Positions 17,801-32,290 of a DNA stretch of 64,000 nt are shown in pieces. The translations under genes and the position numbers were made by a program. The stretch is from Mytilus galloprovincialis (taxonomy: Eukaryota; Mollusca; Bivalvia; Mytilida; Mytilidae), in NCBI RefSeq assembly GCF_965363235.1, contig NC_134850.1, positions 44,078,602 through 44,142,601 on the forward strand. The letters are read 5' to 3'. How positions within the stretch are numbered: position 1 is the stretch's first letter; the number at the start of each line of letters is the position of its first letter. Under the pieces are notes generated by a model, which worked only from the letters and a program-made list of their open reading frames with translations, was not told where the DNA came from and made no database searches.

Positions 17801-20800
17801 CCCAAGTCAGGAGCCTGTAATTCAGTGGTTGTCGTTTGTTTATGTGTTACATATTTGTTTTTCATTCATTTTTATACGACTGCAAAAATTTTAATTTTTT
17901 GGTCGTATATTGCTATCATGTTGGCGTCGTCGTCCTGCGTCGTCGTCGTCGTCCGAATACTTTTAATTTTCGCACTCTAACTTTAGTAAAAGTGAATAGA
18001 AATCAATGAAATTTTAACACAAGGTTTATGACCACAAAAGGAAGGTTGGGATTGATTTTGGGAGTTTTGGTCCCAACATTTTAGGAATTAGGGGCCAAAA
18101 AGGGCCCAAATAAGCATTTTCTTGGTTTTTGCACTATAACTTTAGTTTAAGTGAATAGAAATCTATGAAATTTTGACACAAGGTTTATGACCACAAAAGG
18201 AAGGTTGGGATTGATTTTGGGAGTTTTGGTTCCAACAGTTTAGGAATTAAGGGCCAAAAAAGGGCCCAAATAAGCATTATTCTTGGTTTTCGCACAATAA
18301 CTTTAGTATAAGTAAATAAAAATCAATGAAATTTTAACACAAGGTTTATGACCACAAAAGGAAGGTTGGGATTGATTTTTGGAGTTGAGGTCACAACAGT
18401 TTATGAATTAGGGGCTAAAAAGGGGCCCAAATAAGCATTATTTTTGGTTTTTGCACTATAACTTTAGTATAAGTAAATAGAAATCTATGAAATTTAAACA
18501 CAAGGTTTATGACCATAAAAGGAAGGTTGGGTTTGATTTTGGGAGTTTTGGTCCTAACAGTTTAGGAATAAGGGGCCCAAAGGGTCCAAAATTGAACTTT
18601 GTGTGATTTCATCAAAAATTGAATAATTGGGGTTCTTTGATATGCCGAATCTAACTATGTATGTAGATTCTTAATTTTTGGTCCCGTTTTCAAATTGGTC
18701 TACATTAAGGTCCAAAGGGTCCAAAATTAAACTTAGTTTGATTTTAACAAAAATTGAATCCTTGGGGTTCTTTGATATGCTGAATTTAAAAATGTACTTA
18801 GATTTTTAATTATTGGCCTAGTTTTCAAGTTGGTCCAAATGGGGGTCCAAAATTAAACTTTGTTTGATTTCATCAAAAATTGAATAAATGGGTTCTTTGA
18901 TATGCCAAATCTAACTGTGTATGTAGATTCTTAATTTTTGGTCCAGTTTTCAAATTGGTCTACATTAAGGTCCAAAGGGTCCAAAATTAAACTAAGTTTG
19001 ATTTTAACAAAAATTAAATTCTTGGGCTTATTTGATATGCTTTATCTAAATATGTACTTTGATTTTTGATTATGGGCCCAGTTTTCAAGTTGGTCCAAAT
19101 CAGGATTCCATATCAAGTATTGTGCAATAGCAAGAAATTTTCAATTGCACAGTATTGCACAATAGCAAGAAATATCTAATTGCACAATATTGTGCAATAG
19201 CAATTAATTTTCAATTGGAGTTATCTTTCTTTGTATAGAATAGTAGTTGATAATATATGTTGGAAATTTGCCAGACATGACTATGATGTCATTTTCTATT
19301 TTTATTTGCCAATAACTTTATGTAAATAACTTCATTGGAAATTTGCCAATATAAAATGTTGCTGATAAAGCTTTTTTTCCTTATCTTATCTAAAATGTTT
19401 TTAGATAATGTATGTTGGACATTTGCCAGACATGACTATGATGTCATTTTCTATTTTTTTTTGCCAATAACTTTATGTAAATAACTTCATTGGAAATTTG
19501 CCAATATAAAATGTTGCTGATGAAGTTTTTTTTATTGTTTTATACAATAAACAATGTATATTCACTTTTACTACCAACCAATCTTTACCATTCAGTGATA
19601 ACAAGCACTTTATTTTACATTTTAATATTTAATGATGTATTTAAAAGAGTAGTTATTGTTGCAAACTCCATTAGAAATTTGAATTGATATCAGTTTTGGA
19701 AAAAGGGAAACGGGGATGTGAAAAAAAAGGGGTGGGTGGGGGGGGGGGGGGGGGGGTTAAATTTTTCTCATTTCAGATTTCATAAATAAAAAGAAAATTT
19801 CTTCAAACATTTTTTTGAGAGGATTAATATTCAACAGCATAGTGAATTGCTCAAAGGCAAAAAAAAACTTTTAAGTTCATTAGACCACATTCATTCTGTG
19901 TCAGAAACCTATGCTGTGTCAACTATTTAATTTTAGATTTAAAAAGTTTGAAGAAGAAATCTTTAATTGATTTGTAAAATCTTGACATTTGTTTTGTGTA
20001 AAAAAAACCCATGTAATGTCAAAAATTTGATCACAATCCAAATTCAGAGCTGTATCACGCTTGAATGTTTTGTCCATACTTGCCCCAACTGTTCAGGGTT
20101 CAACCTCTGCGGTCGTATAAAGCTGCGCCCTGCGGAGCACCTGGTTTGTACATAAATAAGGCCGTTAGTTTTCTTGTTTGAATTGTTTTACATTGTCTTA
20201 TCAGGGCCTTTTATAGCTGACTATGCGGTATGGGCTTTGCTCATTGTTGAAGGCTGTACAGTGACCTATTGTTGTTAATGTCTGTGTCATTTTGGTCTTT
20301 TGTGGATAGTTGTCTCATTGGCAATCATACCACATCTTCTTTTTTATACATTATGGGTCAAAGTACAGCCCTCAACACGTTTGTTTTGTTATAAATTTTA
20401 AATCTATAAATGAAAGGTTTGGAAAGTATGGGTATTGACTCATTTATTAGCCACATTAGGACATTAAATTTTACCAACAAATTACAACTAACAATAACAT
20501 TGGTATGGGTAGTAATTTTTTTCATCAAGCATGCTTTTTTTCACCCAACTGGCCCAACATATTGGAACATCAAAGAGGCAAAACCATCAATAATCAACTT
20601 TGTTTGAAGGACTTTGTTGTAAACTTAAAAGATCACTATTTTTCTAACAAAATCATAAACAAAAGAGAATGAACAAAATTATTTCTGAAAAATAAATAAC
20701 ATTTTGGAAAAAAAAGTCACAAGTTACAGTGACTAGTTTTGTTGTGTAGACATCTTTTTGTACTTTGATAGATATTTAAAGATGTACATGAACATCAAGT

Positions 20801-23800
20801 AACTCAAGTATAACAGGATATAAAGTGCAATAAGGATGTACATTATGTTTATATATTCAAAAACTAGTTAGTTTACTTAATTCCACCTTATGTAATAATG
20901 CTGTATTTTGATTGGATGAGAAACGGTAGAAACATGGTATTTTTCACCAATTTCTATATATTGAGATTTTCTTTTCTCTGCCGGGGTATTTGCCATTTGG
21001 GAATTCCATGTGCCGGGGTATTTGCTAGCAAATACCATGGCAGATGGGGAATACCATGTCTAAAAATAACTTAATGAATTATTTCTATTCTAATATGACA
21101 AATTCATGGTCATTCTAAATATATGGTTCCAGATGAAATATTTAGGATAAAAAGCATCATTATTGAATTTGAACCGAATGACATAAAAATTCCGGGAATG
21201 ACGTCATAAATTAAACTCAACGGAAACGAATTGTCAACCGGTCACATAAAACTGGAATCCACTTGTATTATGCTTCACTGAAACTGATGAACAAAGTGTA
21301 GTAGTCAGCTTATTTTCATAAAAAGGGAGATATATATAAAGTCAGTGACTGTACATAAAAACAAATGATAAGAAATGATTATACGGTCAATGCAATTTGA
21401 CTGCACAAATAGCACAGCTGCAGTGTATACAAAAATTATACATTCAAGTCGAAATTTCATATGATACCTGATTATAATAAACTTTCTGAGGTGGAACTTT
21501 CGGTGGAATTAAACAATTATATCATGCTTACAAGGGGTATTTGCCTAAAATACCGGTTTCTCAACCAGTATTTTTGGCAAATACCCCTTGTAAGCATGAT
21601 ATATAAATTTTGAACAGATATATCATGTTATGGAGGGGTATTTGCGAAAAATACCAGTCAAGGGACTGTGAAATTTCCCGAGCCGCTAGGCGAGGGAAAT
21701 TCTGTCCCAAGACTGGTATTTTTCGCAAATACCCCTCCATAACATGATATATCTGTTTAATTACACCGAATAGATTTGGATTGAAACTCTCTGTACATGT
21801 GCAGACAAATACTATCAAGCTGCAATTCATAAACATGTCTATGCATAATTTAGGGTATAAGTGGATATTATCATAGAACCGCGGGAATTATACATGTTCT
21901 AATACGCGTTAGCTCGCTTTCATTATGTAACGTCATATCCGAAATCTTTTGGCGGGAAGCTGCTCGCGAGGGTAAAAAAGGAATATCCAAAATGGCAAAT
22001 ACCATGGTATTTGAGGCAAATTCACCGGCAGTGTTGAAAAACAGGCAAATTCGTTTGAAATGAGGAAAACATATTAGAATATGCGAAAAATACACTGGCT
22101 ATCAACCAATCAAAATCTTGCTTTCTTATATAAGGTGTAATTATGTATAAAATCACATAATGTGAAGTATTTTTTATGTACTTTGATTAACCATTTTTTT
22201 TCATTTTTAAATGTGTGCCTATATTTTAGCCTGTAACACAGAATTGTTTGAGGTTTAAAAGTTTAATTTTTCCAGCCCTTAAACTAGTCAAATAATATAT
22301 CCAGTAATTGTAATTATCCTTAGCTCATGAACTCATAAAATGCATTCCATTCAACATAAAAACAATTGCTTAATAGAACCAACAATGTTTAAAACAATTA
22401 AGATCAATGGCATATTAATTTAAACAATATTTATTTTTCAGAGGAGATATTGCCCTGATTGGGCTTGCAGTGATGGGACAGAATCTCATTCTAAATATGA
22501 ATGACCATGGATTTACTGTAAGTCAATACTGTAGGTCAAGATCATTATTTCACTGTAAATTTCAATTCTGTACTGTTACTTTATAGAGCATTTTTATCTA
22601 TCAATCTACCTGTCTTAGCTTTCGATTAATTCGTTTTTGTTGGTACTGAGGACAAATTGTATTTTTCCAGATATTTGATTTCCCGGTTTTGCTTAAGGTT
22701 CGATATAACCAATGTTATTACAACTGATCAGGCGGAGCTTATGTTTTAATTTGCATAAGGACAGTATATTTGAAGATATGATAAGGATGATTGCCGTTAT
22801 AATTATTATTGAATTCTAATAACCAATCAGTGTCACCAAACGCATATACAAAAGAACTGAGTGTATGATATGGGACGAATAACTGGACACCTCATTGATG
22901 AGTTTATCCCAAAACTCCTGTCTGTAGATGGACTGGTCTTAAATAACAAACTTCTTAAACCCTGTCCAGTCAAGTGAAATAAATCTAGTTCTACTAGCCT
23001 TTTAAAAATTTGTACGTTGATGAATATTGTAATTCATGGTTCACCTAGACTGGGCTATACTTACAAAATCCACAAAAATTAGAATTAGTATATGTAGTAC
23101 ATGTTCATGTGAGCAGAAAAACTAATTTCACTTTTTTTCTATTTTACATTTTGTATACATTACTTTTTGGAAGCCAATGCAAACACTTTGTGAAATTTCA
23201 AAAATTACAAAATATGCTTTTGTAAAAACCTTTCTCACTATATTTCTCCTAAAACTACATTGAAAATGGTTCTATATGAAATACCAATATACTTTTTATA
23301 ACTATACCTGTATGTTGAAAGAATGTTTTTTTGTGTTTTTCAGGTTGTAGCCTTCAACAGAACAGTGTCTAAAGTAGAAGAATTTATGAAAAATGAAGCC
23401 AAAGGAACTAAAGTTATTGGCGCTACATCAATGGAAAACATGGTGTCTCTGTTAAAGAAGCCAAGAAGAGTTATGTTACTTGTCAAAGCAGGACAAGCTG
23501 TTGATGACTTTATTGCCAAATTGGTAAATTTATTACCATGATTACAGACATAATTTAGAATATCTTGTACTTCTTTTGAATTAAATACAACATTTCTTTG
23601 TTAAAATCAATTTCACTAGTAAAGTTTATTCATTGTGTGTTTTCTGTTATACTGCTTCAAATTAACTGAGTTTAGGAGTAGAAACCTACAATGCTACCTC
23701 CAATAAACGTATTTACACTTTTGGTATTTAGCTGAATTTTGTCTCCAAATGACCTTAGATCGTCTCCGAATAACCTTTTGATGTCAAGCAACAATCTCTT

Positions 23801-26800
23801 TTTTGTTGTCAGAGATGTCAAATTTTTGAATTGTTATGTCAAAGTTTAAGGGAACCTGTGTGATTCTACGTATTGGGGGCATATTTACATACAAGTGTAA
23901 ATACGTCTATATAACACATATGAAAAATGTGTCATAAAAGGGTAATGATTAAAGATATTTTTCATGAACAGGAGTAATTTTTTGCAGAAAAATGCTTCAA
24001 AATTTGAAGTAATTGATTCAAATAAAAGCATCTTTAAAAACTATTTTAACTGATAAATGTTTTATTAAAAAATGTTATTGCAAATAAGAAAACTGTCATT
24101 TGTTTCTTGATAGTGGATATCTTGATTACATGTATAAAATAAATATTTTTTAGGTACCTCTTTTAGAGAAAGGTGACATCATCATTGATGGAGGAAACTC
24201 AGAGTATGGAGATACAAATGTAAGTAATGAATCTCCTATAGATGAAGATTTGGAATATTTTTATCATTGTATTTTTATACCCCACTCAACGAAGTTGAGG
24301 AGGGTATAATGTTTTTGACCAGTCAGTCTGTCCGTCTGTCCGTCAGTCCTGTTTCTTGTCATCGCAACTCCTCTCAAACCACACAACAGAATTTCACGAA
24401 ACCTTCTTAGATAATAAAGACATAATATGTAGATGTGAATATCCACAGGAAATTACATTCAAAATTTTTTCTAGGAGTTACAACCCTTTTAACTTATTTG
24501 CTTTAATGTACTACTGCAACAGTTCGTCATCGCAACTTCTCTGAAACCATACAACAGAATTTCATGAAACTTAGTAGATAATAAGGACATACTATGTAGA
24601 TGTGCATATCGACAGGAAATTACAATTTTTCTTTCTTTCTAGGAGTTATGCTCCTCTGAACTTATTTGCTTCAATGTACTTCTGCAACAGTTTTTACCCC
24701 ACGTATAAAGTTGCAGAGGGTTTAATGATTTTGACCCTTCCGTCCATCAGTCCGTTCGTCCGTCAGTTCGTCCTGTTTCTTGTAATCGCAACTCCTCTCA
24801 AACCACACAACAGAATTTCACGAAACCTTCTTAGATAATAAGGACATAATATGTAGACGTACTCACTAAGGTTCTTTAATATTTCCATCACTCAGTTGAA
24901 GTTTCTTGAGACTTCATTTACTAGAAAAGACCATCTCTGGGAAACCCACACACATCCTCCTGTAATGTTGCTAATTTCAACACAAAAATTTATGATTGGT
25001 GATGCAAGTTAATCAAAAGTTGATTTTGAATTAATTATTTATGGTTTGTTTATCACTTTACATTTGAAACCTCATACATGTTACAATTTAGTGCTGTATT
25101 TTCAGAGTTTTTGTGAAAATTACCACAGGGCTCAATTTTTCATGTTGTCTTTTTAACATGTTTAGAATGTATTGATTTAATGAATAATTTTCATTTTCTT
25201 TTTCAGAGAAGATGCAAGGAATTAGCAGCTAAGGGTATGCTATATGTAGGAAGTGGTGTAAGTGGGGGAGAAGATGGAGCTAGATATGGTCCATCTTTGA
25301 TGCCTGGAGGTTCTCCAGAGGCATGGTAAGTAGGAAGTAGTGTAAGTGGCAGGAAAGATGATGATTGAAAATGGTCCATCTATGTGCTTTTGTATCTTTA
25401 CTTTAAAGTGGACGAGAACTAATGTTCTTGATGTTTTATTTAATTCTCAAAATTTCGTGGAAAATTCCACATGAAAAAAATACAAACATATAAGAAATCA
25501 AACAATGAAAACAAATATTAAATTATTGAAAATTTTAGATTAAATCTTTCAATGCATAATTAAAGGGTTTTCTAACATCGAGATTGTAAACTTATAGCAT
25601 GATAATTGGGAGATCAGGTGCGCTGAAAAAATAAATAAATAGGCCTCAATCCACTAATTAAACTTAAAGGGTATATTGAAAATAAATTAGTTGACATAGA
25701 TCGTCCATTTTCATTTCAAAGGATGGTTGTCTTCTCTTCTTGGTACGCAGACTTTCTTTACTTATGAAGAATGGCTGTTAAACACAGCCAAGAGTGCTTA
25801 AAGTGACATTTAAAAAAAAAAACACCAACAATCAATCAGTCAATATAGCATGTACTGCAAACCAACTTATTTTCACATATACTATATTTCGCGTTAAGCC
25901 CTTTCATCCTAATTTCGTGATTTTCAAATTTACTGGGTGTAATTCAATAAGCATGATAAGGAAAGATCCAAGTTTTACAAGTTCGCGACAAATGATATTC
26001 ACGTTATTTTTCTACTCGCGAAAGTCGCAAAAATTAATGGCTCTAAAAAATTAGTTGGTTTACAGTATTGCATGACAAGTCACTACACATAGATACTTTT
26101 GTAGAGATTTGAAAATAATTGTACTGTCTTCTGAACATGAATTTTAAACTACAATTTTAAGTTTTTAAAATGAGAATTTGACATTTTGTCTTTTATTTTA
26201 GGCCTCATGTAAAAGATATTTTCCAGTCTATATCTGCTAAAGTTGGAAAAGAACCATGCTGTGATTGGGTAAGACCTAAAAGGAACTATATATTTTAAAA
26301 CTATTGCTTTATACAGAATATACAGAATCTTATAAGTAATATACATAGTACCAGATAAACAGATATTTTACCTCACTTGACCAAAATGGAGCATGAACTT
26401 TATTGAAGGAGACCTTTCTGAAAACTTTCCAATTTTGTCCTAACTGGATAACATAGTGGTTGTTACGGTTACATGGAATTTACTTAGTAAACAATTTCAC
26501 AGATTGAATGTTTTTTATTTAAAAGTAATAATGTAATCAAGTGTGGAGGCATAATTCAGACCATATTTTACTATTATTATTCAAGGTTGGACCAGAAGGA
26601 GCAGGCCATTTTGTGAAGATGGTCCACAATGGTATTGAGTATGGAGATATGCAGTTGATATGTGAAGCCTACCATTTGATGAAGGATGTTTTAGGAATGA
26701 CACAAGATGAGATGGCTGATGTAGGTTTCTTTGTAAACTTTTATATAGTATTACTGTTTGAAACATGATAAATTCTTTATACTGTAAATTCAGAAATTAT

Positions 26801-29800
26801 TGCGACATTTTAATAATTGTAATTTTTAAATTATTGTGAGAAATGCGACATGGTTTTAATCGCAATAATTTAAACTTCCATTTTTAAAAAAATATTATAT
26901 AAATTAAACAGGACTTTTCACTTCATAGCAAAAATTTTAGTCCAAAATGACAAAATCGCAATAATAAATGCACTCAATAATTTCTGAATGTACAGTAATC
27001 AAACACTGTAAAATAGAAAATAGAGAAACAAAAGAAGGCAGTGTTAACAAGAATTTAAAAAAATATAATTTTTAAATTTATTAAAACATCAATCATTTAA
27101 CATTATTTTTCCAATTTTCCAATTTTGCCAAAGAAGGGAGATAACCATGACTGAAAACATAAATTGTAGCAATTTGATAATTTAAGTTTAAAGAGTAAGT
27201 AAATTAATATAATAATTATTTGTTATTTGACTGTGAAGAGCTAGAGTACATTTCATAGCTTAAATGTTGAGAGTGGATAAATATCGTATTGCACAAGATT
27301 TGTTGGCTGAATCTGTTTCTCTAATGATTTTCAAATAATAAGGAGGCAAAATTTGTCCTTCTTTTGAGTGATCTGCAAAATACTGTGTTCTTTCTATTTG
27401 ACGTCATAAGGCATGGTCACCTTTTTTCATGCCGACACAATAGGAAATTCATAGAAAAGCAAGAAAATTTGACGTCATAATTGGATTTTAACCAATGAAG
27501 AACTGAGATCAAATGAACCACACATTCATTAAATATTTTTTATACAATGGGTGCAGAAAGGGATGAATTGACGAAGAATTAGAGAAAAACTTTTCTCTAT
27601 TTTTTGTGCTATTTTCACATTTCCTGACCGGTGTGAGAAAAATATTTCTCCTCACTAGTGAAAAATCTGTTCTCGGCAAATGATTAGTCGAAATTTGATT
27701 ATGACGTCTAAATGTTTTGTTTTCTTCTGAATTTTCCTATTGTGACGTCATGAAAAAAGGTGACCATGCCTGATGACGTCGCATATAAAGAACACAAGTT
27801 TCTGAAAATCTTTAAAAAGGAGGATAAAAATCAGAGAAACAGATTCCTACACTATAACTCGTGTATTACGATATTTCTCCACTCTCGACAGTTAAATTTT
27901 AGTTATTTAAAGAGCTCGGCAAGCCTCACGCTTTAAATAATAAAATTTAACTGTCTCGAGTGGAGAAACATCGTAATACACTTGTTGCAGTGTAGGAATC
28001 TATATTTACAAAACCACATTAACAAATTTCCTCTATATACATACAAATTTGGTACCCATGAAAAAACATGAATCAACTTAATTTTTAGGGAATATTGCTT
28101 ATTGTATATTTATCATGTTTTTTGACAGGTATTTGATGATTGGAACAAAGGAGAACTGGAATCATTCCTGATAGAGATCTCAAGAGATATCCTTAGATTT
28201 AAAGATTCTGATGGCAAATATCTCCTGGACAAAATCAGAGACACAGCTGGACAGGTATACAGTTAAAAGCATGATGCTCATTCATTTAAATTTGTCTTTC
28301 TGTGCCATAATATTTTGCAATACTTTAAAGTTGTTTATGTTTTCAGAAATTTATTTTCCAGATTTCATTGAACAAAACTACACAAGTTTTACTTAAGATA
28401 GATGCTTCTTATATAAAAGATAATTACAGCCAAAATTACAACATAGAACCAATTTATAATTTCAGAAAGGAACAGGAAAGTGGACGGCAATCTCAGCATT
28501 AGAATATGGTGTACCTGTATCTTTAATAGGTTTGTCTAAAACTTTATTAAACATTAATAGAAAGAACTTACAGGACATCTTATTGGTTTAAAAACCAAAC
28601 TAATGGACAATTGTTTATGTTTGGTGAAAAAAAGCAACAAAATGCAACATTGATTCTAGTCCTTTTCACTGGCATAAATACAATGATTAAAAAGATTTAT
28701 CTTTTTGTTACAGCTTTAAAGTTCAATTTCATGTTGAAACAAATAAAAAGAAACAATTTCTGAATCAGTCCCTTTAGTTTTGATTGGATTTGATGACCTA
28801 ATGTTTGCTCAAAACCTCCTTCCAAATTAAAGAGTTAAAAACAGTACCAACAATCAAATTACCAGATTATCTAAAATTGATGATACTGCACAAACAAATA
28901 AAATATACAAGTATGAGAATGAATAGATAGTGTCTGATTATTATTGCACACAATAAATGCTTTAAACCATGTTTTTGTACCATTAATGCTTAATATACTG
29001 GTATGATGATATTTAGTCAAATAAAAACATTTCAAGATGAAGACCAGTAATCTAATTTATGTACTGAACCTTAAAAATGAAATGTATTTTATTATCTTTT
29101 TCTAATTTTTCAGCTGAAGCTGTATTTGCCAGATGTCTTTCAGCCATGCAAGGGGAGAGAATTGAAGCTAGTAAACAAATCAAAGGACCAGCAACTACCA
29201 AATATACTGGGGATAAAAAAGAATTTATTAATGATATCAAATATGTAAGTTACTGTGTTGTTAAAACAATTTTTAATAGGGGCCATTATGATTTCTGATG
29301 TGTGGATTGGAATATCAGTTGGGTTAAAGATTTTGTTGAAGGTAGAGTTTACCATGACCTTGAGGTCACATTTACAATACAATAGATCTGGCATTCATTT
29401 TGATTTAAACTTTTTACAACTATGGTTTTGATTTCTTGGTTCACTGAGTGTGAAAGATGGATAGCGTGAGGAAGAAATTTTTCTAAGAATAAGCTATTGT
29501 AGACTCCCTTCTTTTCTGGCTTCTTATAATTTTAACCTATTCATTTAAATTTGACTGACATGTATTTTGGTAACAATTCACACTGATTGCTGTGTACGCA
29601 TTATTCTATTTTACCACTTTTTACAAACAAAACTTAATTATTGTGGGTAATTTTTACCTAGTTTATTGTATATCCATAACAATTTTGTCAGCTGTGAATA
29701 AGATTCCATATCATAGCTTTCTGATGTATATGACTTGGTGATATAAAAAAACATCAAAGTAAACTTATTTTTTTTTTTAGAAAAAACTGTCTTACACTTG

Positions 29801-32290
29801 AATCAATACCTCAAATGGATAAAAATTCCAGGATATAATGTATTGTAAAATACTTGTTGCTCAATGCAGTATGCACTTTTTTTTTTAGAATAGATCAATA
29901 CAAAGTATAAATACCCATCGCAGAAATTTTATCTATATGCTGAAAACCTGATAATATCTATGCATGAACATTTCTAACATTAATTATTGCATTTTTAATT
30001 CACTAAAATTTGAATGAAAATTTTTATTTTTTATTTTTTAGGCATTATATGCTTCCAAGATAGTATCATATGCCCAGGGTTTTATGTTATTGAGGGAGGC
30101 TGCTAAGGAATTGAATTGGAAACTTAACATGGGAGGTATAGCCTTGATGTGGAGAGGAGGTTGTATTATCAGAAGGTAGGTTATCTTCTATCTTATTTAT
30201 TGATTTTTATTGTGGAATTTTAGACTGTTTAGAATTTTAGATTAAAAAACAAAAAAGTTAAGTAAGGGAGATAATTAACAAAATTTCATGTTTGGTTTAG
30301 AAAAGGATCTCTATTACCTCCCCTTTGCAACTTAATAAATTCTGATTATCTTTGTTATTTTCATAGCCTAATCTCTTAGTCTCTTACAATATCCCAATTC
30401 ACGATTTTCTTAATCTTAAAACATTTTACTATTCCCAATTACATTAATGAAAGAACGTAATAGGGACAATATTCATTTGTGCATTAATAATTTTTATTTA
30501 TGACTTTGAAGAAACTTTATAAATGAAAACAGTATTTATTTGTAGTGTGTTCTTAGGGAATATTAAACAAGCATTTGACAAGAAGCCAGATCTAAGTAAC
30601 TTATTGCTGGATGATTTCTTTAAAGGAGAAATACAGAAATGTCAGGTAAGGCCATGCAATAAAATATTCTGTTTGAGATTGAGGCCATGCAAGAAAAAGA
30701 TCTGTTTGTTTAGTCTGTGTTTAGAGCTAAATCGAGCTCAACCAAGATTTTTGTTTAAATCAGATAATAATATGAATTGTTGTTATTATTTAATTTTATG
30801 ACAAAATATGCAATACAATATGGCATATCTCTAAAAAGATGTATAGAAAAAAATGGAAAAAAATCATTTATTGAAAAAATCATTTACTCATTGCAATAAA
30901 CAATATGGACATGGAAGAAATATTTTACAAACATTCTGCTTGTAAAGTTTTTTAATGGTTAATTGATGCAAATAATATATTTATAATCTAACTCTATGTT
31001 GGAATTTTCAGGTAAGAAAATTAAATGAGAGACAATTCATTTGATTTCATTTGAATATCTTTAAAAAGGTCAAAATGAATGAATGAATGGATGTTGGGGG
31101 AATGAATGGCTCATTATGATTTATCCCACCTTTCAGAAAATTTAATTGATTATTGTTTTTCCCTTGAGCTTAAAATTCAGGGCCAAGCAACAATCATCAG
31201 AAATTATAAGAAGTGTTTTCTGACCCCAATTAAAAGTAGTTTTAGAAAACTCTCATTTGCAAAATGATTTTGGACCTTTTTTTTTATAATTTTCATTGAT
31301 ATTAATATTTTAGACTTCATGGCGTAAAGTAGTAGCAACAGCTGTTACATTAGGTGTTCCTACTCCTGCTTTCAGTACAGCATTAGGTTTCTTTAATTTA
31401 TATTTTAGACATCATGGCGTAAAGTTGTAGCAACAGCTGTTACATAAGGTGTACCTACACCTGCCTTCAGTACAGCATTAGCTTTCTTTAATTTATATTT
31501 TAGACATCATGGCGTAAAGTTGTAGCAACAGCTGTTACATTAGGTGTACCTACTCCTGCCTTCAGTACAGCATTAGCTTTCTTTGATGGGTATAGATCTG
31601 CAAGACTACCAGCCAATATGTTACAGGTATTTTTTAAATTATAAAGAGATGTTATTGAAACACTTATTTCATTGGCTACTTGCTACCTTTATATTCACAA
31701 TCAAATATGTTTTTACTAAGGAATATTTCAATCACAAATTTAAAGATAATATTGAGAACGAATGTCACAAATGAAACAAATATGAATAATAAATAGAAAT
31801 ACACAGACGTGTCACACATGCTAAGAATAACTTTGGTAACTGTAAAGGTGGTAGATGCCATTACAGGGAGATAACTCTGTAAAAATCAGCTAAACGTTTT
31901 AACCATGTTCTATTGTTAAGAGAATATTAAGCTTCTCAATGATCAAAATTAGTGTATGTCAAACTGCTATATATCGGATACAAATTTTCAGTTAAGTTAG
32001 TTTGTGAGTTTGTGGTTCAATTTTTTTTAAATTTTGATATTTTAGACGAAGGTTTATGGTTAATATTTTGTCAAAATTTTACGAAAATTAAATGAGCTAA
32101 ATTAATTTTAGTTGGGGTGTTTGGAACCAACTGATATTAAAATTAATATGTAATGTATTCACATTTTTAGGCACAAAGAGATTATTTTGGTGCCCACACT
32201 TACGAGTTACTAGACAACCCAGGGAAGTTCATACACACCAACTGGACCGGACATGGAGGGAATGTGTCTTCAACTACATACCAAGTTTGA
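11837..32290 (+). CDS. PGD: 6-phosphogluconate dehydrogenase (decarboxylating), fourteen exons
   Basis: Oxidatively decarboxylates 6-phosphogluconate to ribulose 5-phosphate with reduction of NADP, in the cytosolic pentose phosphate pathway. Exons: 11837-11847, 22442-22517, 23344-23523, 24154-24219, 25207-25325, 26202-26268, 26586-26720, 28129-28254, 28466-28529, 29114-29244, 30042-30175, 30546-30645, 31504-31626, 32171-32290. The spliced frame is 483 codons, as in human PGD. Visible motifs: the NADP-binding GLAVMG (11-16) and NRT (34-36), the [20 protein letters not shown] substrate loop, [20 protein letters not shown] with catalytic K184 and E191, KGTGKWT, and the C-terminal R447 and H453 that reach the neighbouring subunit in the homodimer. 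Nothing essential is missing. Intron 1 is 10.6 kb and repeat-filled. Exon 13 is preceded by two partial tandem copies. Identification is very secure; the short exon 1 is deduced from ATG, phase and a consensus donor. Confidence 0.97.
12119..12385 (+). mobile_element. tRNA-derived SINE
   Basis: The head resembles a tRNA gene: an A box within TGGCCAAGTGGTCTAAG and a B box in GTGAATTCGAACCC about 60 bp later. A body follows with the conserved-looking block GGTTTTCTCTGGGCCCACTC and TTCCTCCACCAATAAAAAC. There is no cloverleaf 3' half, so it is not a working tRNA. It is the better preserved of two copies in PGD intron 1. Confidence 0.8.
13912..14186. repeat. 33-bp tandem repeat, eight copies
   Basis: The unit TCAGACTTAGGCTTCTTTTT plus ACTTATTCTAACA repeats with starts at 13930, 13963, 13996, 14030, 14063, 14096, 14129 and 14162. 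One unit carries an extra T. Because 33 is a multiple of three it creates a long false reading frame of 11-residue repeats. It lies in PGD intron 1. Confidence 0.92.
15056..16474. mobile_element. 1.4-kb element bounded by a 14-bp inverted repeat
   Basis: AGTGTTCTCCCCAG at 15056-15069 is matched perfectly in inverse at 16461-16474. Just inside the left end is a perfect 24-bp palindrome (15077-15100) centred on GCGGTACCGC, followed by three ~20-bp units of the form CGCGACGCTATAATTATTAC. The rest is AT-rich with no recognised protein. It is probably a non-autonomous element; no target-site duplication is clear. It lies in PGD intron 1. Confidence 0.6.
17395..17605 (+). mobile_element. Degraded tRNA-headed SINE copy
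   Basis: A diverged relative of 12119-12385. It keeps a B-box-like GAGTTTGATCC and the body block GGTTCTCTCTGGGTTCTCTT with TAGATAAAAACTTGCCAC, and a tail TTCTAAACACC. The A-box part is largely lost. Confidence 0.55.
17680..20345 (+). mobile_element. Retroelement tail split by a 2.3-kb mosaic insertion
   Basis: The tail begins inverted at 17680-17751 (GATGTGGTATGAGTGCCAAT). It continues forward at 17752-17875 (GGATCCCGCTAACATGTTTA to TTTGTTTTTC) and resumes at ~20148-20345 (ACATAAATAAGGCCGTTAGT to ATCATACCACATCTTC). Alignment with the uninterrupted copy at 51300-51634 shows that ~2.27 kb (17876-20147) was inserted. The insert starts TACGACTGCAAAAATTTTAA and carries GGTCGTATA near both ends. 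It is non-coding and built of four tandem families. Confidence 0.75.
17965..19540. repeat. Four stacked tandem repeat families inside one insertion
   Basis: (a) About four units of ~157 bp (17965-18590) containing ACAAGGTTTATGACCACAAA. (b) Four units of ~125-130 bp (18590-19100) containing CTTTGATATGC, alternating as ABAB. (c) Three units of ~35 bp (19116-19220) around GCACAATAGCAAGAAAT. (d) Two units of ~167 bp (from about 19255 and 19420) containing TTTGCCAGACATGACTATGA. Confidence 0.85.
20878..22143. mobile_element. 1.27-kb fold-back element with nested perfect palindromes
   Basis: Outer inverted ends: TAATTCCACCTTATGTAATA with ATTTTGATTGGATGA at the left, and the inverse CAACCAATCAAAATC with TATAAGGTGTAATTA at the right. 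Inside are a hairpin at 21519-21602 and a second at 21613-21757 whose two 46-bp arms (21613-21658 and 21712-21757) are perfectly complementary. Many copies of GGTATTTGCC-like sequence recur. There is no protein. It ends 298 bp before PGD exon 2. Confidence 0.8.
22442..22517 (+). CDS. PGD: PGD exon 2
   Basis: Residues 4-29, with the dinucleotide-binding GLAVMG. The acceptor is TATTTTTCAG, the donor GTAAGT; the first base completes lysine 4. Confidence 0.95.
23344..23523 (+). CDS. PGD: PGD exon 3
   Basis: Residues 30-89, [14 protein letters not shown] to DDFIAKL. It includes the NRT residues that select NADP through the 2'-phosphate, and KKPRR. Acceptor TTTTTCAG, donor GTAAAT. Confidence 0.97.
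24154..24219 (+). CDS. PGD: PGD exon 4
   Basis: Residues 90-111, [20 protein letters not shown] followed by TN. Acceptor ATTTTTTAG, donor GTAAGT. Confidence 0.96.
24271..24870 (+). repeat. Three partial copies of a dispersed repeat
   Basis: The block CATCGCAACTCCTCTCAAAC, CAGAATTTCACGAAACCTTC and TAGATAATAAGGACATA occurs in full at 24277-24450 and 24695-24860, and partly at 24520-24625. The two fuller copies each begin with ATACCCCAC-type sequence and a CGTCCGTC-rich stretch. It lies in PGD intron 4. Confidence 0.7.
25207..25325 (+). CDS. PGD: PGD exon 5
   Basis: Residues 112-151, including [20 protein letters not shown], the substrate-binding loop. It ends after two bases of tryptophan 151. 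Donor GTAAGT. Confidence 0.97.
25853..26067. mobile_element. 215-bp MITE, TACTGCAAACCAACTTA ends
   Basis: The left end TACTGCAAACCAACTTA and the right end AATTAGTTGGTTTACAGTA are inverted copies with few mismatches. The core contains GCG-rich islands (TTCGCG, CTCGCGAAAGTCGC). It lies in PGD intron 5. Confidence 0.75.
26202..26268 (+). CDS. PGD: PGD exon 6
   Basis: Completes W151 and continues to residue 173: [20 protein letters not shown] then DW. Acceptor TTTTATTTTAG, donor GTAAGA. Confidence 0.96.
26586..26720 (+). CDS. PGD: PGD exon 7 (catalytic)
   Basis: Residues 174-218, with [20 protein letters not shown], holding the catalytic lysine 184 and glutamate 191. Acceptor TTATTCAAG, donor GTAGGT. 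Confidence 0.97.
26780..26997. mobile_element. 218-bp MITE, TACTGTAAATTCAGAAATT ends
   Basis: The left TACTGTAAATTCAGAAATT is mirrored by AATTTCTGAATGTACAGTA at the right. Inner blocks with CGCAATAAT are also inverted. It is the fuller relative of 8993-9141. It lies in PGD intron 7. Confidence 0.85.
27246..28005. mobile_element. 0.76-kb fold-back element carrying CRE-like sites
   Basis: Long imperfect arms: left ~27257-27490 (GAGAGTGGATAAATATCGTA, GGCATGGTCACCTTTTTTCA), right ~27711-27905 as the inverse. A further terminal hairpin lies at 27848-27999 (CGTGTATTACGATATTTCTC and its inverse). Perfect TGACGTCA sites occur at 27399-27406, 27470-27477 and 27743-27750. A fragment of the same family in opposite orientation is at 44372-44580. 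It lies in PGD intron 7. Confidence 0.75.
28129..28254 (+). CDS. PGD: PGD exon 8
   Basis: Residues 219-260, [20 protein letters not shown] onward to DTAGQ. Acceptor TTTGACAG, donor GTATAC. Confidence 0.96.
28466..28529 (+). CDS. PGD: PGD exon 9
   Basis: Residues 261-281 plus one base: [20 protein letters not shown] then I. It holds the substrate-binding KGTGKW. Donor GTTTGT. Confidence 0.96.
29114..29244 (+). CDS. PGD: PGD exon 10
   Basis: Completes alanine 282 and runs to residue 325: [20 protein letters not shown] to FINDIKY. Acceptor TTTTTCAG, donor GTAAGT. Confidence 0.96.
30042..30175 (+). CDS. PGD: PGD exon 11
   Basis: Residues 326-369 plus two bases: [20 protein letters not shown] and later [14 protein letters not shown]. 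Acceptor ATTTTTTAG, donor GTAGGT. Confidence 0.97.
30546..30645 (+). CDS. PGD: PGD exon 12
   Basis: Completes serine 370 and runs to 403: [20 protein letters not shown], then [12 protein letters not shown]. Acceptor TTATTTGTAG, donor GTAAGG. Confidence 0.96.
31314..31503 (+). repeat. PGD: Two decoy copies of the PGD exon 13 start, 95-bp period
   Basis: The acceptor plus the first ~80 bp of exon 13 is repeated at 31314, 31409 and 31504, exactly 95 bp apart. Copies 1 and 2 end in TTTCTTTAATTTATATTTTAG, fusing exon sequence to the intron end. Ninety-five is not a multiple of three. Copy 2 has an in-frame TAA at 31445-31447, and copy 1 read on into copy 2 also stops, so using either acceptor would truncate the protein. 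Copies 2 and 3 differ at two sites in the shared exon part; copy 1 differs from copy 3 at five, four of them synonymous. Confidence 0.95.
31504..31626 (+). CDS. PGD: PGD exon 13, the complete copy
   Basis: Residues 404-444: [20 protein letters not shown] through [14 protein letters not shown]. Acceptor TATATTTTAG, donor GTATTT. Two partial tandem copies with their own acceptors lie directly upstream (31314 and 31409); only this one continues into the FFDGY part and keeps the frame into exon 14. Confidence 0.95.
32171..32290 (+). CDS. PGD: PGD exon 14 and stop
   Basis: Residues 445-483 and [17 protein letters not shown] with R447 and H453, then [18 protein letters not shown]. Acceptor CATTTTTAG. 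Confidence 0.97.
   Translation, partial: AQRDYFGAHTYELLDNPGKFIHTNWTGHGGNVSSTTYQV

Follow-up and report, generated by a model that had tools for sequence, protein, structure and literature searches.

A threefold tandem duplication across an intron–exon border in the 6-phosphogluconate dehydrogenase gene of Mytilus galloprovincialis

Tandem duplications that span the last part of an intron and the beginning of the following exon have been described in several settings. In a potato RdRp gene, an intron was gained through a tandem duplication crossing an intron–exon border (PMC4974935). Human BRCA1 has a partial duplication of exon 10 (PMC11839443), and in Drosophila 624 of the 1901 duplications in 15 lines took in some exon and no whole gene (Emerson et al., cited in PMC2891723). 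A comparable arrangement is present in the gene for 6-phosphogluconate dehydrogenase (PGD) of the mussel Mytilus galloprovincialis, where a stretch joining an intron end to the beginning of the next exon is present in three successive copies. It lies in a 64,000 nt stretch of contig NC_134850.1 (forward strand, positions 44,078,602 to 44,142,601; here 'the window', in which all positions are given). Elsewhere in the genome, a 770-residue open frame with many copies of the decapeptide AKPSYPPTYK (17 matches to the query), a repeat characteristic of Mytilus foot protein 1, agrees with this genus. Judged by these precedents, among them cases of intron gain and of partial-exon duplication, the array is an already known kind of event.

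As in the potato gene, the duplicated piece joins the 3′ side of an intron to the 5′ side of the exon after it, with a real acceptor in each copy. In potato, a cryptic GTAAG donor of the upstream copy was activated and the new intron was confirmed by RNA reads (PMC4974935), whereas the PGD array has only 13 nt of intron per unit and three copies. The BRCA1 duplication is alike in layout (intron end plus exon start, in tandem, with loss of frame and a premature stop in the cDNA), but it consists of two copies of about 2 kb (395 nt of intron plus 1617 nt of exon) on a disease allele (PMC11839443), in contrast to three 95-bp copies in a gene that is otherwise intact. The Drosophila duplications are likewise short, mostly tandem and inclusive of exon parts (PMC2891723). 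They are population polymorphisms, while the PGD array is seen in one assembled haplotype. Close tandem acceptors of the NAGNAG type also place rival acceptors ahead of one exon, but the cases listed are 3, 6 or 9 nt apart, and the PGD acceptors are spaced by 95 nt, with duplicated exon separating them.

Thirteen PGD exons were located on the forward strand between 22442 and 32290, and when joined they give an open frame of 479 residues. The protein matches both Pfam domains of the enzyme, PF03446 (163.5 bits) and PF00393 (452.7 bits, profile positions 1–290 of 290), and aligns with human PGD (4gwg) over residues 2–478 (E 2.1e-259). With both domains found across the whole protein, the gene is that of 6-phosphogluconate dehydrogenase. 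The exon numbers assume one further exon upstream of the 13 located; exon 1 itself has no confident location, with one weak candidate at 20223–20227. The gene model is as follows (a slash marks the exon end).

22442–30175, forward strand: PGD exons '2' to '11', ten in all, introns included, whose joined protein matches PF03446 and PF00393
30546–30645, forward strand: upstream PGD exon ('exon 12'), ending TGTCAG/gtaagg, from the exon model that joins to the 479-residue frame
31504–31626, forward strand: functional PGD 'exon 13', 123 nt, phase 0, donor CAG/gtattt, aligning with human PGD
32171–32290, forward strand: last PGD exon with its TGA stop, from the exon model

The array consists of a 95-bp unit repeated three times head to tail (31301–31585), each unit comprising 13 nt from the end of the intron, with its closing AG, followed by 82 nt of exon.

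31301–31395, forward strand: copy 1, acceptor 31314, acceptor score 10.8
31396–31490, forward strand: copy 2, acceptor 31409, acceptor score 12.6, with an in-frame TAA at 31445–31447
31491–31585, forward strand: copy 3, acceptor 31504, acceptor score 12.6, running into the remainder of the exon

Unique intron sequence lies to the left of copy 1, and to the right of copy 3 the remaining exon continues to the donor at 31626. At a lag of 95, 179 of 190 positions in the array are identical. Chance origin is excluded, because 200 two-base shuffles of the 1000 bases around the array gave at most 86 at any lag from 20 to 399. Pairwise differences across the 95 positions number seven between copies 1 and 3, eight between copies 1 and 2, and three between copies 2 and 3; six of the differences of copy 1 from the other two are private to it. 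Across the first 81 exon bases, copies 1 and 3 show five differences, four of them synonymous, while at the 82nd exon base (31585) copy 3 has G and the other two have A. Head-to-tail copies that each carry an intron end, its AG and an exon start are what a tandem duplication across an intron–exon border produces, and the array is one.

A reading made earlier from the sequence alone had named the gene as PGD, placed three acceptors 95 bp apart at 31314, 31409 and 31504, and counted four of the five exon changes that separate copies 1 and 3 as synonymous. The domain and human enzyme matches agree with the first of these, the array with the second, and the first 81 exon bases with the third. That reading gave the duplicated exon portion as 80 bp; the duplication is there, but its measured length is 82 nt.

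Of the three acceptors, 31504 is the sole one from which the exon (123 nt) stays open and in phase as far as its donor, 31626. The frame entered at 31314 runs for 38 residues to a TAG at 31428–31430, inside copy 2, and that entered at 31409 meets the TAA at 31445–31447, within copy 2 itself. When 31314 or 31409 is used, these stops lie 196 and 179 nt, respectively, ahead of the exon junction at 31626. Stops that far before an exon junction are expected to trigger nonsense-mediated decay, and decay of messages using 31314 or 31409 is therefore to be expected.

Acceptors were scored with a matrix built from the other 12 PGD acceptors, whose leave-one-out scores range from 1.3 to 16.4. The values of 10.8, 12.6 and 12.6 for 31314, 31409 and 31504 fall among those of real acceptors, and every other AG listed in 31240–31640 scores below 0. 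The sequence-only reading thus holds in its claims that the two upstream sites look like good acceptors, that both lead to early stops and that copy 2 has a TAA of its own. Its further claim, that only the third acceptor yields a functional product, stands for direct splicing but not for two internal splices from copy 1 to copy 3, which also give the 41 residues of the exon and are considered below.

The array is real in the assembly, and its kind is ordinary. It is probably a genuine short tandem triplication in which copy 3 is coding and copies 1 and 2 are in effect intron. Two rounds of duplication are the simplest account, because copies 2 and 3 group together and copy 1 has six differences of its own. 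First, a 95-bp stretch spanning the intron–exon border would have been duplicated. The downstream copy, attached to the remaining exon, would have stayed coding and collected silent changes, and a second duplication of this copy would have given copies 2 and 3. Copies 1 and 2, by then effectively intron, may have drifted, with copy 2 acquiring its stop. Normal enzyme would come from joining the exon end at 30645 to the acceptor at 31504, with messages that use 31314 or 31409 presumably removed by nonsense-mediated decay.

Several observations count against this scheme. Copy 1 retains its native upstream context, an AG-free stretch of 68 nt with three good branch-site candidates, and a simple first-AG rule would on that account select copy 1, which is unproductive. 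Upstream of the acceptors of copies 2 and 3 lies exon sequence, without a good branch-site candidate at 15–60 nt and with one candidate too close (12 nt). The share of synonymous differences, four of five, is also somewhat unexpected if copy 1 was unconstrained (P 0.11). The branch-site scan ranks copy 1 first only weakly, because 3 of the 12 ordinary PGD acceptors also have no good candidate. For tandem acceptors 2–59 nt apart, a library study found order preference to be absent (PMC6783452).

If copy 1 does win the competition, most messages would decay and the animal would depend on leaky splicing to 31504 or on its second haplotype, making this a weak or null allele. The branch-site context, best in copy 1, points this way, as does the BRCA1 duplication of like layout, which kept the whole duplicated stretch in cDNA (PMC11839443), although the primers there picked out the altered allele alone, a design that gives no share of such messages. 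The divergence among the copies suggests instead that the array has existed for some time, and the remaining PGD coding sequence is intact. A weak or null allele is thus considered distinctly unlikely. The array is a natural, ready-made test of splicing choice among near-identical acceptors, placed in a metabolic gene for which only one locus was found, and is possibly an early stage of intron gain.

The synonymous differences bear on where copy 1 came from. The probability of four in five being synonymous is 0.02 for wholly random changes and 0.11 for constraint on copy 3 alone, so that the pattern would mildly favour constraint on both sides. The sequence-only reading had proposed that copy 1 derives from a diverged but functional allele by unequal exchange, an origin in keeping with the value of 0.02 and with gene exchange reported among European Mytilus species. 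However, the synonymous difference between copies 1 and 3 amounts to 4 of about 22 sites (18%). Mean silent diversity is 0.012–0.038 within M. edulis and M. galloprovincialis and divergence between them is 0.015–0.057, with a spread from locus to locus about as large as the mean (Table 2 of PMC6071616). Four or more synonymous differences would have a probability of 0.005 at 3% divergence, 0.026 at 5% and 0.10 at 8%. This origin is not favoured, because 18% exceeds both the mean silent diversity (1.2–3.8%) and the mean divergence in Mytilus; it is regarded as unlikely, and the favoured source of copy 1 remains duplication within the gene.

The main rival named by the earlier reading was an assembly artefact, through merged haplotypes or a false repeat. 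If two haplotypes had been merged, two copies might be expected rather than three. The array also carries an identical novel exon–intron junction twice in the same register, together with copy-specific differences, and a single junction common to three copies is a poor fit to merging. Further copies were sought in the assembly (1.38 Gb, 331 contigs), with only the best candidates scored. The DNA of 31200–31700 gave a single match, to this locus, and PF00393 gave five, all to exons of this PGD gene. No second PGD copy or haplotig was thus found with these two queries, the N-terminal domain not being among the queries, and the array sits on a chromosome-sized contig of 74 Mb. An artefact is accordingly very unlikely.

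The array was also compared with the potato case for signs of a new intron. Donors were scored with a matrix from the gene itself, on which the 12 real PGD donors score 3.0–9.7. Between 31314 and 31626, donors scoring at least 3.0 are 31626 (7.6) and 31589 (4.2), both past the copies, and 31386 (3.0), in copy 1; the best in copy 2 scores 1.8. The copies do not fit mutually exclusive tandem exons, in which each would have a usable donor of its own. For intron gain of the potato type, no usable in-frame donor was found among one-intron joins, the eight that join to 31504 scoring −3.8 to 0.3.

One-intron splices of at least 30 nt that start in copy 1 or 2, keep the frame and leave it open number 57, of which 8 are degenerate (ending at 31627). 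Among these listed joins, only two restore exactly 41 of 41 residues, 31353 to 31544 and 31386 to 31577. Their donors are as follows.

31350–31355, forward strand: TTAGGT (AGGT motif) in copy 1, cut after 31353, partner 31544 in copy 3; donor score 1.1 on the gene's own matrix and 2.6 on a human matrix
31384–31392, forward strand: TAG/GTTTCT in copy 1, partner 31577 in copy 3; donor score 3.0 on the own matrix and 0.0 on the human matrix

An AGGT in the duplicated exon with the frame kept, the mark of an AGGT duplication of the Rogers type (as given in PMC4974935), is thus found at two sites in copy 1. If acceptor 31314 were used and either 190 nt segment (31354–31543 or 31387–31576) were removed, the exact normal protein would result. 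The array would then be an intron being born, with copy 1 as a living 5′ exon part and the intron made of two duplication units. That both splices keep 41 of 41 residues agrees with this, but the match alone is no evidence, because any AGGT in a tandemly copied exon keeps the protein. More specific is the donor at 31386, present in copy 1 only, where the lone non-synonymous difference (G at 31387, for C in copy 3) creates AG/GT, and each of the four coding differences upstream is synonymous. Of 246 cases of a random change, 4 create a new AGGT, giving a probability of 0.08 for at least one in five. The donor scores of 1.1 and 3.0 compare poorly with those of the 12 PGD donors, the second equalling the weakest of them, and on the human matrix 2.6 and 0.0 stand against 4.1–11.3. 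The acceptors, at −3.3 and −7.8 on the PGD matrix, lie below the whole range of real ones. A newborn intron is therefore considered highly improbable.

How often such arrays arise was gauged from 60 control loci, namely the 30 best-scoring of 49 PF00118 matches and the 30 best-scoring of 86 PF00153 matches; being best matches, they are not a random sample, and as several overlap or share one gene they are not independent. Arrays with a period of at least 20 were present at 23 of the 60 loci and covered 11,564 of 194,400 bases, and in the 64,000-base window they covered 4,783 bases. Within the matched coding stretch there were none (0/60), one array (at locus L025) overlapping the edge of its stretch by 3 bases from the intron side. 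Tandem duplication is thus routine in this genome, and an array that hits an exon looks uncommon. At L025 (1648–1695), a 24-bp duplication lies at the edge of a minus-strand chaperonin (PF00118) exon and doubles intron sequence beside an apparent acceptor.

Within the PGD gene, the intron ahead of copy 1 holds a near-match to the exon 11/12 junction (IIRSVF, 31203–31220) that is within chance. A decayed copy of exons 11–12 in this intron, suggested by one tblastn extension, was rejected, since shuffles reached its score in 175 of 500 cases for DNA and 124 of 1000 for protein. The intron between the exons at 24154–24219 and 25207–25325 carries a 168-bp tandem duplication in two copies (24358–24692, 84% matches). 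Upstream of the located PGD exons, 17967–19533 is a cluster of tandem arrays with periods including 161, 260, 35 and 155 bp, and positions 1–1804 are a satellite with a period of 41 bp (about 44 copies, 91% matches) that begins at the window edge.

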